A DNA stretch of 46,928 nt from Candidatus Omnitrophota bacterium (lineage in GTDB: Bacteria; Omnitrophota; Gorgyraeia; Gorgyraeales; Gorgyraeaceae): the NCBI GenBank assembly GCA_018902915.1, contig JAHIPS010000066.1:1-46928 (forward strand), given 5' to 3'. Position numbers and translations under genes: made by a program. The notes under the pieces are model-generated. The model was not told where the DNA came from. It worked only from the letters and a program-made list of their open reading frames with translations, and ran no database searches. Positions 1,524-46,242 of the stretch are shown in pieces (position 1 is the first letter of the stretch; each line of letters begins with the position of its first letter).

Positions 1524-1581
1524 CAATTGTTCAAGGCTAAGCCTTGAACAGGCCTGTTCAAGGCTTAGCCTTGAACAATTG
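1524..1581. repeat. Family A palindromic doublet, locus 1 (58-bp perfect palindrome)
   Basis: CAATTGTTCAAGGCTAAGCCTTGAACAGG/CCTGTTCAAGGCTTAGCCTTGAACAATTG; two inverted 23-mers at 1528-1550 and 1555-1577. Confidence 0.97.
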
Positions 1582-9944: not shown

Positions 9945-10015
9945 GATTGCTTCGGCGCTTCGCGCCTCGCAATGACACGAGTGCTTATGTCATTGCGAGC
10001 GAAGCGAAGCAATCT
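9945..10015. repeat. Family C (GTCATTGCGAGCGAAGCGAAGCAATC) inverted pair
   Basis: GATTGCTTCGGCGCTTCGCGCCTCGCAATGACA ... TGTCATTGCGAGCGAAGCGAAGCAATC. Confidence 0.93.
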
Positions 10016-10029
10016 CAAAAGGGATAATT

Positions 10030-11229
10030 ATGACGACATTCAGGTATGTTGCGAAAGAAAACACGGGCAAGACAGTGAGCGGGGTGCTGGAATATTCTGA
10101 CAAGGCCTCACTGGTGGACGCGCTCAGGAAGCGGGGCCTCGTTATAATCTCTATAAACGAGGCCAGGAAGAAAAAAATGACCGGCGGAGCAAAGGTGAAG
10201 CTCGAGGAAGTTGTAATATTTTCCAGGCAGCTGGCTACCATGGTCGATAGCGGCATACCTCTGGTCCAGGCAATGGATATTTTACATGACCAGATAGAAA
10301 AGTCCGTGTTTAAAAATATCGCGGCGACGATCAGGGATGACATAGAGGGGGGCTTTAATTTTTCAGACGCGCTTTCAAAGCACCCGTCTGTTTTTTCGCC
10401 GCTTTACATAAACATGGTAAGGGCGGGCGAATCCAGCGGCGCGCTCGATGATATACTGGACAGGCTCGCGAGTTATTTGGAAAAGGCAAACAAGCTCCAG
10501 AGAAAGGTAAAATCGAGTTTGGTATATCCTGCCGTGGTGGTGGCGATGGCAGTGCTGATAACGCTGGTCATGCTTTTAAAGGTCATCCCGACATTCAAGG
10601 GAATATTCGGGATGCTGGGCGGCACGCTGCCTTTGCCGACGAGGATTTTGATCCTCGTCAGCGATACGTTGCGCAACATGTTTTTGTATGTGGTTGGCGT
10701 TGTGGTCGTGGCAGGTTTTTTATTGAAAAGATATATTGCAACTAAACAGGGCAGGTCCGTGTTTGACAGCATGACTTTGAGGATGCCTATTATTGGCCAG
10801 CTTTTGAGAAAGGTCGCGGTTGCAAAATTTACCAGGACGCTTGCTACGCTCGTTAAAAGCGGCGTGCCGATTTTGGTTTCGCTTGAGATTGTCGGGAAGA
10901 CATCAGGCAACACAGTGATAGAGAAAGCGGTTGAAAAGGTGCGCACGGGTATAAAGGAGGGCGAGAATATTGCCGGGCCGCTCGGGAAGAGCGGCGCGTT
11001 TCCGCCAATGGTCGTGAGGATGATATATGTCGGCGAGCAGACAGGCGAGCTTGAAAAGATGCTGGGCAAGATCGCGGATTTTTACGATGACCAGGTGGAC
11101 GCTGCTGTGAGCGGGTTGACGAGTCTCATAGAGCCGCTCATAATAGCATTTTTAGGCGTCGTGATAGGCGGCATAGTGATCGCGATGTTTTTGCCTGTAT
11201 TCAAGCTCACAGAGATCCTCTCGCATTAG
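10030..11229 (+). CDS. pilC: Type IV pilus/T2SS inner-membrane protein PilC/GspF
   Basis: FSRQLATMVDSGIPLVQAMDIL, second repeat FTRTLATLVKSGVPILVSLEIV, LIEPLIIAFLGVVIGGIVIAMFLPVF. Confidence 0.95.
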   Translation: MTTFRYVAKENTGKTVSGVLEYSDKASLVDALRKRGLVIISINEARKKKMTGGAKVKLEEVVIFSRQLATMVDSGIPLVQAMDILHDQIEKSVFKNIAATIRDDIEGGFNFSDALSKHPSVFSPLYINMVRAGESSGALDDILDRLASYLEKANKLQRKVKSSLVYPAVVVAMAVLITLVMLLKVIPTFKGIFGMLGGTLPLPTRILILVSDTLRNMFLYVVGVVVVAGFLLKRYIATKQGRSVFDSMTLRMPIIGQLLRKVAVAKFTRTLATLVKSGVPILVSLEIVGKTSGNTVIEKAVEKVRTGIKEGENIAGPLGKSGAFPPMVVRMIYVGEQTGELEKMLGKIADFYDDQVDAAVSGLTSLIEPLIIAFLGVVIGGIVIAMFLPVFKLTEILSH

Positions 11230-11274
11230 CCCCAAGTTGACAATTTTGACATTGTCAGATTTGTCAACTTGGGG
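11230..11274. repeat. Family B palindromic element, locus 1
   Basis: CCCCAAGTTGACAATTTTGACATTGTCAGATTTGTCAACTTGGGG; 14-bp outer arms; shares a 37-bp identical core with 23967-24003. Confidence 0.93.
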
Positions 11275-11922: not shown

Positions 11923-11973
11923 TGTTCAAGGCTAAGCCTTGAACAGCAAGTGTTCAAGGCTAAGCCTTGAACA
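11923..11973. repeat. Family A doublet, locus 2 (direct A/A orientation, 5-nt spacer GCAAG)
   Basis: TGTTCAAGGCTAAGCCTTGAACA at 11923-11945 and 11951-11973. Confidence 0.96.
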
Positions 11974-14078: not shown

Positions 14079-14152
14079 TGTCATTGCGAGGCCGCGAGGC
14101 GGCCGAAGCAATCTCAGGGCTTAGAGATTGCTTCGCTTCGCTCGCAATGACA
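14079..14152. repeat. Family C inverted pair, locus 2
   Basis: TGTCATTGCGAGGCCGCGAGGCGGCCGAAGCAATCTC ... GAGATTGCTTCGCTTCGCTCGCAATGACA. Confidence 0.93.
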
Positions 14153-14162
14153 GGAGATACTT

Positions 14163-18893: not shown

Positions 18894-19865
18894 ATGTTTA
18901 TTGACCACGCAGAGATCAATGTCAGGGCAGGCGACGGCGGCGACGGTTGTCACAGTTTTTCCAAAGGCAGGATGCAGAGGTACAAGAAGCCTGACGGCGG
19001 AGACGGCGGCAAAGGCGGCGACGTAATAATCATTGCGGACAACAATGTCCAGACCCTCGTCGATTTTTATTACAGAAAGCATTTTAAGGCGGAGTCTGGC
19101 AGCAACGGTTCTAGCAATCATAAAAAAGGCGCTGACGGCAGGGACTCTATAATAAGGGTCAGCATCGGGACGATTTTAAGAGACAGGCACGAGGACATTG
19201 TTTATTGCGATTTGAATGAGGTCGGCCGGTCAGTCGTGATCACGAAGGGCGGGGCTGGCGGCGCTGGAAATTCCAGGCGCAGGGATGCCACGCCCGGGAA
19301 AGACGGCGACGAGAAAAATATTGTTTTAGAATTAAAATTAGTCGCTGACGTCGGCATAATCGGCTATCCAAATGTGGGCAAGTCGAGCCTGATCTGTCGC
19401 GTGTCAAAGGCAAAGTCAAAGATAGCCAGTTATTCGTTTACCACGAAGACGCCGATTTTGGGCGTGGTGAAGCTGGATAGCGAGAGAAGTTTTGTTATTT
19501 GTGATATCCCGGGACTGATAGAAGGCGCGCATTCCGGCAGGGGGCTGGGCGACGAGTTTCTGAGGCACGTTGAAAGGACAAAAGTCCTCGTGCACATGAT
19601 AGACATGGCAGGCGTGGAGCAGAGAGATCCTGTCGAGGATTTGAAAAAAATAAATCATGAGCTTGGCGCGTATGATCCGGGTCTTTTAAAGCGGCCGCAG
19701 ATCCTGGCGGCGAATAAAATGGATCTTCCGGACGCGGCCGAGAATTTAAAGAGTTTTAGAAAAAAGGTAAAGAAAAAGATATATCCAATATCTTGCGTAA
19801 CAGGCGAGGGCATAAAAGAGCTGCTCGAGGCAGCGCATACTGCGCTGTTCAAGGCTAAGCCTTGA
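18894..19865 (+). CDS. obgE: GTPase Obg/CgtA
   Basis: Glycine-rich OBG fold, GYPNVGKSSLI, DIPGLIEGAHSGRGLGDEFLRH. Confidence 0.97.
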   Translation: MFIDHAEINVRAGDGGDGCHSFSKGRMQRYKKPDGGDGGKGGDVIIIADNNVQTLVDFYYRKHFKAESGSNGSSNHKKGADGRDSIIRVSIGTILRDRHEDIVYCDLNEVGRSVVITKGGAGGAGNSRRRDATPGKDGDEKNIVLELKLVADVGIIGYPNVGKSSLICRVSKAKSKIASYSFTTKTPILGVVKLDSERSFVICDIPGLIEGAHSGRGLGDEFLRHVERTKVLVHMIDMAGVEQRDPVEDLKKINHELGAYDPGLLKRPQILAANKMDLPDAAENLKSFRKKVKKKIYPISCVTGEGIKELLEAAHTALFKAKP

Positions 19866-19890
19866 ACAGCGCAAGGCTAAGCCTTGAACA
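19846..19890. repeat. Family A doublet, locus 3 (second copy 5'-truncated), overlapping the obgE 3' end
   Basis: TGTTCAAGGCTAAGCCTTGAACA 19846-19868; CAAGGCTAAGCCTTGAACA 19872-19890. Confidence 0.93.
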
Positions 19891-21968: not shown

Positions 21969-22020
21969 ATGTTCAAGGCTAAGCCTTGAACAAGCTTGTT
22001 CAAGGCTTAGCCTTGAACAT
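21969..22020. repeat. Family A doublet, locus 4 (52-bp perfect palindrome)
   Basis: ATGTTCAAGGCTAAGCCTTGAACAAG/CTTGTTCAAGGCTTAGCCTTGAACAT. Confidence 0.97.
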
Positions 22021-29645: not shown

Positions 29646-29698
29646 TGTTCAAGGCTAAGCCTTGAACAAGCTTGTTCAAGGCTTAGCCTTGAACACTA
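29643..29698. repeat. Family A doublet, locus 5 (56-bp perfect palindrome spanning trpF stop to next ATG)
   Basis: TAGTGTTCAAGGCTAAGCCTTGAACAAG/CTTGTTCAAGGCTTAGCCTTGAACACTA. Confidence 0.97.
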
Positions 29699-38083: not shown

Positions 38084-38139
38084 CCCTCTCCCCTCGCTGT
38101 AGGGCAGGTTTAAACCTGCCCTACAGCGAGGGGAGAGGG
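38084..38139. repeat. Family F 56-bp perfect palindrome
   Basis: CCCTCTCCCCTCGCTGTAGGGCAGGTTT/AAACCTGCCCTACAGCGAGGGGAGAGGG. Confidence 0.97.
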
Positions 38140-40998: not shown

Positions 40999-41056
40999 CC
41001 TTTGTTCAAGGCTTAGCCTTGAACAGGCCTGTTCAAGGCTAAGCCTTGAACAAAGG
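40999..41056. repeat. Family A doublet, locus 6 (58-bp perfect palindrome)
   Basis: CCTTTGTTCAAGGCTTAGCCTTGAACAGG/CCTGTTCAAGGCTAAGCCTTGAACAAAGG. Confidence 0.97.
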
Positions 41057-42640: not shown

Positions 42641-45277
42641 GTGAAAGATATCCCGTCCAGATATAATCCGCAAGAAGTAGAGAAAAAAATATACAGACGA
42701 TGGCAGGATGAAGGTCTGTTTGGCGCTGAGGCGTCAAGCAGGAAAAAACCTTTTACAATCGTGATCCCGCCGCCGAATGTCACGGGTATACTCCACATGG
42801 GCCATGCCCTGAATAACACTCTGCAGGATATCCTGATTCGCTGGAAAAGGATGCAGGGATTCGCGAGCCTGTGGGTGCCTGGCACTGACCACGCGGGAAT
42901 CGCCACGCAGAACGTGGTGGAGAAAAAGCTGGCAACCTCAGGCAAGTCGCGCGATGATCTGGGCCGCGAGAAATTTATCGACGAGGTCTGGAAGTGGCGC
43001 GAAGAGTATGGTTCGACCATAATCGAGCAGCTCAAGCGCCTGGGCTCGTCGTGCGACTGGCAGAGAACGCGCTTCACAATGGATGAAGGGCTTTCGCAGG
43101 CAGTGCTCGAGGCATTTATAAAGCTGCATAAAAAAGGATTGATCTACAGGGGGAATTATATAATCAATTGGTGCCCGAGGTGCCACACAGCACTTTCTGA
43201 CGAGGAAGCGCCGCACGTGGATACCGAGGGGAAATTGTACTATATAAAATATCCGCTTAAAGAAGGTGAAGAGTGCAGGGTGAAGGGTGAAGGCGTTGTG
43301 GTGGCGACGACAAGGCCTGAGACAATGCTGGGCGATGTCGCTGTCGCAGTAAATCCAAAGGACAAGCGCTACAAAAAGCTCGTCGGTAAAACATTGATCC
43401 TGCCAATAATCGGCCGCGAGATAGAGATTGTCGCGGATAGTTTTGTGGACAGAGAATTTGGCACAGGCGCTGTCAAGGTCACGCCTGCGCACGACCCGAA
43501 TGATTTTGAAATGGGCAAGCGTCACTCACTCGACCCTGTTTTAGTAATGAACTCTGACGCTACAATGAACGAGAATGCAGGCGCGTACAAGGGCATGGAT
43601 AGATTTGAGGCAAGGGCCGGCATTTTAAAAGAGCTGGAAGAAAAGGGCTTGCTTGTCAAGACAGAGAAACATCAGCACGCTGTGGGCCATTGTTACAGGT
43701 GTCACACTGCTGTTGAGCCATATCTTTCGCTCCAGTGGTTTGTAAACATGAAGGAGTTGGCAAAACCCGCGATCGAGGCGGTAAAAAAAGGAAAAATAAA
43801 ATTTACGCCAAAGAGATGGACAAAGGTGTATCTCAACTGGATGGAGAACATCCGCGACTGGTGTATTTCGCGCCAGATCTGGTGGGGGCATCGAATTCCG
43901 GTCTATTATTGCGAAATATGCAAAGAGGTCATTGTGGCAAAAGTAAAACCAGAGACGTGTCCTGAGTGCGGCTCGACCAGGATCAGGCAGGACGAGGATG
44001 TTTTGGATACGTGGTTCTCGTCGTGGCTGTGGCCGTTTTCAACGCTCGGGTGGCCGGAGAAGACAAAAGACCTGGAATATTTTTACCCGACAGATGTTTT
44101 GGTCACAGCGCCTGAGATATTATTTTTCTGGGTCGCCCGCATGATAATGGCGGGCCTGGAGTTTACAGGCGAGATCCCTTTCAGCGATGTGTATCTCCAC
44201 GGCACGGTCAGGGACCTCACAGGAAAAAAGATGTCAAAGTCGCTCGGCAATATCATTGACCCGCTCGATATAATAAATGAATTTGGCGCAGACGCGCTGC
44301 GTTACAGCATGATCGTTATTACGGCCACGGGCCAGGACGTGTTTCTTTCCAAGGAAAAATTCGAGATCGGCAGGAATTTTGCCAACAAGATCTGGAACGC
44401 GTCGCGGTTTGTGCTCATGAATGTTCAAGGCTTAGCCTTGAACAAAAGATGTTCAAGGCTAAGCCTTGAACATTTGGCGGACGAGTGGATATTGAGCAGG
44501 CTCAATAGGGCTGTGGAAGCAGTAACAAAATCGCTCGGCCAATACAGGTTTAACGAGGCAGAGGCGCTCGTGTATGACTTTTTCTGGCATGACTTTTGCG
44601 ACTGGTACGTGGAGATGGTCAAGCCAGAGATAGCAGGGGGTGTCAAGGGACAGGTTTTGCTGGATGTCCTGGAGAGCTCATTGAAACTTTTGCATCCGTT
44701 CATGCCGTTTGTGACCGAGGCAGTGTGGCAAAATATCGACGAGAGACACAGCATAATGCAGGAGGCATGGCCAAGGCCGGATAAGAAACTGGTAAAAAAA
44801 GATATAGAGGAGCGCGTAGAGACAATAAAATCAATTATTGTGAGTATAAGAAATATCCGGGCTGACATGAATATCCCGCATTCTAAAAGACTCGTGGTGT
44901 ATCTCGTGCCTTTGAAAAAGGCAAGCGAGGCCAAGCTGAAAGGCGGGATCGATTATATTAAGAATCTTGCTCGGCTGGACGAGCTTGTAATTGATAAAGA
45001 CATGAAAAGGCCTGAGGCGTGCGCTACAGCAGTGCTCGAGGATTTTAATATATTTATTCCTTTAAAGGGCGTTATTGATATTGACGCGGAACGCTCGCGG
45101 CTCACAAAAAAAATGCAGGATGCCAAGGCGCAGCTGAGCTTTAGCGACAGGCGGCTGAAGGACAAGAATTTCACAGCCAGGGCGCCTGAGAAAATAGTGG
45201 CGCAGGAAAAAGACAAGGCTGAAAAACTGGGTGAGCAGATAACCCGCCTAAAATCCACCCTAAACACCCTTATTTGA
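42641..45277 (+). CDS. valS: Valyl-tRNA synthetase
   Basis: PPPNVTGILHMGHALNNT, GTDHAGIATQ, KMSKSLGN, NIWNASRFVLMN; GTG start. Confidence 0.97.
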   Translation: MKDIPSRYNPQEVEKKIYRRWQDEGLFGAEASSRKKPFTIVIPPPNVTGILHMGHALNNTLQDILIRWKRMQGFASLWVPGTDHAGIATQNVVEKKLATSGKSRDDLGREKFIDEVWKWREEYGSTIIEQLKRLGSSCDWQRTRFTMDEGLSQAVLEAFIKLHKKGLIYRGNYIINWCPRCHTALSDEEAPHVDTEGKLYYIKYPLKEGEECRVKGEGVVVATTRPETMLGDVAVAVNPKDKRYKKLVGKTLILPIIGREIEIVADSFVDREFGTGAVKVTPAHDPNDFEMGKRHSLDPVLVMNSDATMNENAGAYKGMDRFEARAGILKELEEKGLLVKTEKHQHAVGHCYRCHTAVEPYLSLQWFVNMKELAKPAIEAVKKGKIKFTPKRWTKVYLNWMENIRDWCISRQIWWGHRIPVYYCEICKEVIVAKVKPETCPECGSTRIRQDEDVLDTWFSSWLWPFSTLGWPEKTKDLEYFYPTDVLVTAPEILFFWVARMIMAGLEFTGEIPFSDVYLHGTVRDLTGKKMSKSLGNIIDPLDIINEFGADALRYSMIVITATGQDVFLSKEKFEIGRNFANKIWNASRFVLMNVQGLALNKRCSRLSLEHLADEWILSRLNRAVEAVTKSLGQYRFNEAEALVYDFFWHDFCDWYVEMVKPEIAGGVKGQVLLDVLESSLKLLHPFMPFVTEAVWQNIDERHSIMQEAWPRPDKKLVKKDIEERVETIKSIIVSIRNIRADMNIPHSKRLVVYLVPLKKASEAKLKGGIDYIKNLARLDELVIDKDMKRPEACATAVLEDFNIFIPLKGVIDIDAERSRLTKKMQDAKAQLSFSDRRLKDKNFTARAPEKIVAQEKDKAEKLGEQITRLKSTLNTLI
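44422..44472. repeat. Family A doublet, locus 7, in frame inside valS (51 bp, 5-nt spacer AAAGA)
   Basis: TGTTCAAGGCTTAGCCTTGAACA at 44422-44444 and TGTTCAAGGCTAAGCCTTGAACA at 44450-44472; translated as VQGLALNKRCSRLSLEH. Confidence 0.97.
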
Positions 45278-46148: not shown

Positions 46149-46157
46149 AATTGCATA

Positions 46158-46229
46158 TGTCATTGCGAGCGAAGCGAAGCAATCTTTCTAGATCGAGATT
46201 GCTTCGTCGTTTCGCTCCTCGCAATGACA
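46158..46229. repeat. Family C inverted pair, locus 3
   Basis: TGTCATTGCGAGCGAAGCGAAGCAATCT...GAGATTGCTTCGTCGTTTCGCTCCTCGCAATGACA. Confidence 0.93.
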
Positions 46230-46242
46230 CTCTTATCATACT

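Follow-up and report, generated by a model that had tools for sequence, protein, structure and literature searches.

Palindromic repeats that are translated as part of their host proteins are best known from Rickettsia and Wolbachia. The Rickettsia palindromic elements (RPE; Ogata et al. 2000, 2002) are ~100-150 bp long, lie in frame in many conserved genes and form several families per genome, and the enzyme that mobilises them is not known (PMC2229807, PMC10969869). Palindromic repeats with coding potential have also been described as insertions in genes of Wolbachia and Methanocaldococcus (cited in PMC2229807), and Correia/NEMIS and other MITEs with reading frames occur as an open-frame variant in genes and a stop-bearing variant between genes (PMC2229807). 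REP elements of the GTAG and CGTC superfamilies are short palindromes, often dimers, that lie mostly beside gene ends and in some cases inside ORFs; in two Xanthomonas species, recB is reported to contain different REPs at nearly one and the same position, so that recurrent sites have a precedent, and in the same survey other genes of that category were hit at different sites (PMC3733652). In nematomorph mitochondria, coding palindromes reach 284 bp without being presented as members of a single dispersed family, and template switching was proposed for the forming and correcting of their arms (PMC6649704).

In this work, we analyzed a palindromic doublet inside the valyl-tRNA synthetase gene (valS) of a member of the uncultured phylum Omnitrophota (genome G000), using a contig stretch of 46,928 nucleotides, hereafter the window, together with related genera, which carry translated palindromic repeats as well. 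A literature search on Omnitrophota with palindromic found no report of such repeats. Judged from the sequences, the family would belong to the general kind of protein-coding palindromic repeats, as it is both a dispersed multicopy palindrome and inserted in frame in several unrelated conserved genes. In this, and in the presence of several families per genome, it resembles the RPE, the conserved genes here being six (ValS, ProRS, AlaRS, QueA, Dxs and Lnt). What sets it apart from the RPE descriptions is the phylum, the presence of an own family in each sister genus, the repeated use of the same loops by different families and the small net gain in length; moreover, the in-gene copies are 50-54-bp doublets of a 23-bp palindrome, outside the RPE length range. 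The likeness to the Wolbachia and Methanocaldococcus repeats, coding palindromes in genes, is one of description only. As in Correia/NEMIS and related MITEs, two sequence variants (TGTCC and TGTTC) are split between genic and intergenic positions, and the terminal inverted repeats of MITEs are present, the whole element being an inverted repeat, but it is far shorter and no target-site duplication was found. With REP elements the valS-type family shares short palindromes, often paired, that in some cases lie inside ORFs; unlike them, it has no GTAG or CGTC tag at its ends (a separate GTAG...TTTAAA...CTAC family is present in G000), and four genes share their site across genera. The perfectly matched inverted repeats inside coding genes recall those of nematomorph mitochondria.

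New here are the lineage, the architecture of the element, the convergence of several families on shared loops, and protein sequence that is probably replaced instead of being extended. Within a small set of related genera, numerous families occur, target loops are shared and occupied loops can be compared with empty ones, so that two questions can be tested from sequence alone: whether a repeat lengthens a protein loop or takes its place, and where in essential proteins almost any loop sequence is accepted. The case is also a warning that loop differences among orthologues need not mean gradual evolution.

The palindromic doublet in valS

The ORF at 42641-45277 encodes a valine--tRNA ligase (NCBIfam NF004349, 1255 bits against a cut-off of 704); the gene is intact, and its nearest named matches are ValS of Candidatus Omnitrophota, with 57-58% identity. 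Positions 44422-44472 consist of a 23-bp palindrome, the spacer AAAGA and the reverse complement of the same palindrome (TGTTCAAGGCTTAGCCTTGAACA / AAAGA / TGTTCAAGGCTAAGCCTTGAACA; 51 bp in all), read in the valS frame as V595-H611, VQGLALNKRCSRLSLEH. The perfect inverted repeat is 25 bp long (44420-44444 versus 44450-44474) with a 5-nt loop, and its predicted RNA fold has a free energy of -43.4 kcal/mol (z = -11.3). The sequence, the inverted repeat and the NF004349 match confirm the in-frame palindromic doublet that a preliminary description, made from the letters of the window, had proposed. The order of the units noted there also proved to be needed: at the valS phase and with a 5-nt spacer, only T-centre followed by A-centre is open, while the A-centre copy placed first gives a stop (VQG*ALN). 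The arms of the valS copy are identical to the family consensus, so that it looks young.

Residues 595-611 fall between the Pfam domains tRNA-synt_1 (16-568) and Anticodon_1 (614-754). In a low-confidence AlphaFold model they form a coil, with helices 571-594 and 612-633 on either side; this model was built from 16 sequences and its overall quality is poor (mean pLDDT 62), and it is therefore used for this local statement only. No Rfam families and no tRNAs were found in the window.

Table 1 Features of the valS locus and other elements of the same family in the window
Feature	Position	Strand	Basis or remark
valS, valyl-tRNA synthetase, 878 aa	42641..45277	+	ORF finder call, GTG start; NF004349
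Palindromic unit 1, T-centre TGTTCAAGGCTTAGCCTTGAACA, read VQGLALN	44422..44444	+	sequence match
Spacer AAAGA, 5 nt, hairpin loop	44445..44449	+	sequence
Palindromic unit 2, A-centre TGTTCAAGGCTAAGCCTTGAACA, read CSRLSLEH	44450..44472	+	sequence match
Full hairpin, arms 2 site-specific complementary bp (AA/TT) longer than the doublet	44420..44474		inverted-repeat analysis
Intergenic doublet, A then T centre, spacer GGCC	1528..1577		same family as valS doublet
Intergenic doublet, A and A centres, spacer GCAAG	11923..11973		same family as valS doublet
Perfect unit that overlaps a degenerate one, intergenic	19846..19890		same family as valS doublet
Intergenic doublet, A then T centre, spacer AGCT	21970..22019		same family as valS doublet
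Intergenic doublet directly 3' of a TAG stop, spacer AGCT	29646..29695		same family as valS doublet
Intergenic doublet, T then A centre, spacer GGCC	41003..41052		same family as valS doublet

A dispersed family in G000 and few relatives

The heritable unit is the 23-bp palindrome TGTYCAAGGCTNAGCCTTGRACA, which is nearly always paired with its own reverse complement; the element ends are TGTTC and GAACA. We found 180 units at three mismatches or fewer in the 1.8-Mb G000 genome (a fragmented assembly of 128 contigs, 86% complete) against 0 for the reversed control pattern, and the window contains 14 matches to the unit, the expectation from shuffles being 0.00; both counts rule out chance. The family occupies ~90 places in G000, most of them between genes, and its six other elements in the window are all intergenic (Table 1). 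Within ~520 kb of this genome we catalogued 77 elements, 73 of which are paired units. The doublets measure ~48-57 bp (one, 67 bp), and the spacer is 4 nt long in 39 of 72 doublets, 6 nt in 15 and 5 nt in five. Among 119 genomes the family was present in four, with 178 units at one mismatch in G000, 44 in G001, five in G003 and three in one other.

In-frame copies in other genes

Five further G000 genes contain in-frame doublets: ProRS (51 bp), AlaRS (50 bp), QueA (52 bp), Dxs (52 bp) and Lnt (apolipoprotein N-acyltransferase, 54 bp). The view that translation requires a 51-bp doublet with a 5-nt spacer is therefore not general, as flanking bases restore the frame in copies of 50 to 54 bp. In Dxs, the element sits between Transket_pyr (to 479) and Transketolase_C (from 506).

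The TGTCC/GGACA variant was intragenic in four of its six copies, compared with 2/66 of the remaining copies (P = 2e-4). This variant turns TGA into TGG in one reading frame, and its bias is as expected if stop codons help to keep copies out of genes. Two families that are open in all three frames, TGTCCAACTTCG of G016 and AAAGCCGAGG of G004, are often intragenic; however, some palindrome families with two open frames were seen between genes only, so that open frames are not the whole explanation. The TGTCCAACTTCG family was found in frame in Fmt, DnaE, DprA, GcpE, LpxK, IleRS, KsgA, an IF-2B family protein, ValS and QueA of G016 (loci L197-L216), its DprA copy separating the DNA_processg_A domain from the winged-helix domain.

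Unrelated palindromes in the same loops of related genera

The ValS loop holds palindromes in G000, G003, G004 and G016. That of G004 is an unrelated doublet of the AAAGCCGAGG type, a family with 29 units in G004 and none in five other genomes tested; that of G016 is a third palindrome, of the TGTCCAACTTCG type, which occurs at ~35 sites in G016; and that of G003 is a TGTCC variant with the opposite centre order and in another phase relative to G000. In G014 and G017 the loop contains a longer hairpin. The loop was rightly singled out at the start as a variable site. It takes at least four unrelated peptides in related genera, and in the alignment of sister ValS none shares the 17-residue segment without the palindrome. 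No inverted repeat of such size was found in the ValS loops of 80 named sequences from other lineages. The QueA loop is occupied in G000, G004, G013 and G016, the ProRS loop in G000, G001, G004 and G015, and the Dxs loop in G000 and G004; these three loops were located by alignment, as regex anchors missed most sequences. The ValS, QueA and Dxs loops of G001 are empty.

G000 and G004, sister genera in the tree, have five and four occupied genes, and four of these coincide, with the element in the same loop (P = 1.3e-7 among 177 shared genes); the intragenic counts cover ~520 kb of G000, 336 kb of G004 and 309 kb of G016, and the occupancy rates are inflated because these regions were chosen around repeats. 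The same sampling bias applies to the intergenic comparison, yet no excess was observed there, the overlap in orthologous gaps of G000 and G004 being at chance (8/145, P = 0.30). Inheritance of intergenic sites with turnover between these two genomes was not supported by this overlap. For G004 and G016 the intergenic gaps gave a weak excess (P = 0.008) that fell to P = 0.06 with gap size controlled.

Probable replacement of loop sequence

According to the preliminary description the doublet adds 17 residues to ValS. The loop comparison contradicts this: the loop has 18 residues in G000 and 17-19 in seven sister ValS without palindrome, and a length equal to that of palindrome-free sisters indicates that native residues were trimmed or gave way to the repeat. 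In the four genes, 15 occupied loops had gained 5.0 residues net on average, for an element span of 16.9 codons, and 5.5 native residues were left in them versus 17.4 in empty loops (n = 15, P = 8e-4), the occupied loops including related genomes and thus being incompletely independent. The parallel drawn with in-gene insertion of RPE stands as regards a translated, dispersed palindrome in a variable ValS loop; addition of 17 residues and a required length and spacer are not supported.

Either of two routes may have led to this result: insertion followed by trimming under a length constraint, or an insertion that itself replaces sequence. A young-looking ValS copy at baseline length favours replacing insertion or very rapid trimming, although an old copy could be kept young-looking by gene conversion. 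The loop lengths are also open to another reading, in which the palindrome-free loops would be older palindromes that have decayed.

Origin of the repeated occupancy

The valS-type palindrome forms a genome-wide family limited to G000 and two or three related genomes. Most copies are intergenic, six genes carry it in frame, and other families occupy the same loops in related genera. On this comparative evidence, the ValS segment is probably the translation of one copy of a mobile palindromic repeat, dispersed in the genome and without a product of its own. The repeat would belong to one of several unrelated families that keep inserting and survive in few tolerant loops, with loss of native residues and with the doublet arising by snap-back. 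Many unrelated palindrome families would insert again and again throughout these genomes. Inside genes, their copies would survive only in a few loops, often interdomain linkers, that tolerate any readable sequence, and the same loops would be hit repeatedly because only few of them tolerate insertion. Most native loop residues would be lost during or after insertion, which would account for the near-constant loop length. The ValS peptide most likely has no function beyond being tolerated.

A stronger version, which we put forward tentatively and regard as possible but on the whole doubtful, makes the palindromes loop-replacing agents: insertion would be coupled to loss of the native loop or aimed at existing hairpins, and the same linkers of essential enzymes would be overwritten repeatedly by unrelated palindromes at near-constant length. 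If true, this would constitute a route for the wholesale rewriting of protein loops.

An unlikely alternative is that each loop carried one palindrome in the ancestor of the clade and was overwritten in place by later families, through insertion into or conversion of the existing hairpin, so that position was inherited and sequence replaced. ProRS is occupied in all three members of (G000,G004),G001, and a shared ancestral insertion with later sequence change is thus a possibility for this gene, where the loops of G000 and G001 have the same total of 63 nt; in addition, one of the G004 elements (L085:9062) sits within a longer hairpin specific to its site. However, the emptiness of ValS, QueA and Dxs in G001, the differences in phase and centre order between the ProRS copies of G000 and G001 and between the ValS copies of G000 and G003, the lack of positional inheritance in the intergenic gaps of G000 and G004, and the occupancy of ValS and QueA in G016, which lies outside the clade, all argue against it.

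Retention of the hairpin for a role in the valS message (attenuation, stability or pausing) would agree with the high stability of the RNA hairpin and its perfectly matched arms, but it is improbable given that neither seven sister valS nor the 80 named ValS loops of other lineages have a hairpin there and that the same arms recur at ~90 unrelated, mostly intergenic places. It is hardly credible that an assembly or binning artefact put the repeat inside valS: palindromes are prone to mis-assembly and the assembly is fragmented, but the valS frame is intact, five other G000 genes have in-frame copies, and other genera, assembled independently, have their own palindromes at the same loop. Equally remote is a beneficial, selected addition to ValS, for which nothing speaks beyond the presence of the segment and against which stand the unrelated peptides accepted by the loop in related genera and the coil between two helices in the low-confidence model.

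Doublet formation and other palindromes

The preferred reading, a dispersed repeat tolerated in ValS, includes a proposal for how the doublets arise. In 56 doublets with perfect consensus arms we counted 38 distinct spacers, which implies that block-wise copying of the whole doublet does not account for most of them. In 62 of 72 doublets the two units are exact reverse complements of each other; this holds for 9/16 of those with non-consensus arms. Complementarity also extends into the flanks, at 88, 75, 58 and 42% for positions 1-4 of the 72 doublets and at background beyond, against ~30% for shuffled partners, and the G016 family behaves similarly (76, 67 and 38%). The flanks are inverted, not direct: direct flanking repeats of 5-10 bp, which would indicate target-site duplication, were absent from all 72 doublets, and those of 4 bp numbered three against 0.28 expected. 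A single unit is probably copied on site by snap-back (template switch) to give the doublet. If the spacer came from bases already at the site and copying ran a little way into the flanks, snap-back would explain the site-specific spacers, the matched arms, the complementary flanks and the lack of target-site duplication, whereas selection on the base of the RNA hairpin could account for the flanks only. Three Y1_Tnp matches are present in G000.

The nested G004 element (L085:9062-9137) is a AAAGCCGAGG palindrome within a longer site-specific hairpin with CTCAACTTTACTTGGCA arms, which suggests either that it inserted at the tip of a palindrome already present or that the hairpin was extended by snap-back. 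Other palindromes were observed in the window. A second doublet family, of the TCATTGCGAGCGAAGCGAAGCAATC type, lies at 9945-10030, 14082-14160 and 46157-46230, and a relative of it occupies the QueA loop of G015 (L231:2407), where the loop has 46 residues. The GTAGGSCAGGTTTAAACCTGSCCTAC palindrome, which resembles GTAG-type REP elements, lies at 38084-38139 and was also found at L067:6515, at L179:16810 and in many places in G004; it is common to G000, G004 and G016, often with long site-specific complementary flanks. Finally, the hairpin AAGTTGACA...TGTCAACTT at 11230-11274 represents another intergenic family, with look-alikes in G016.
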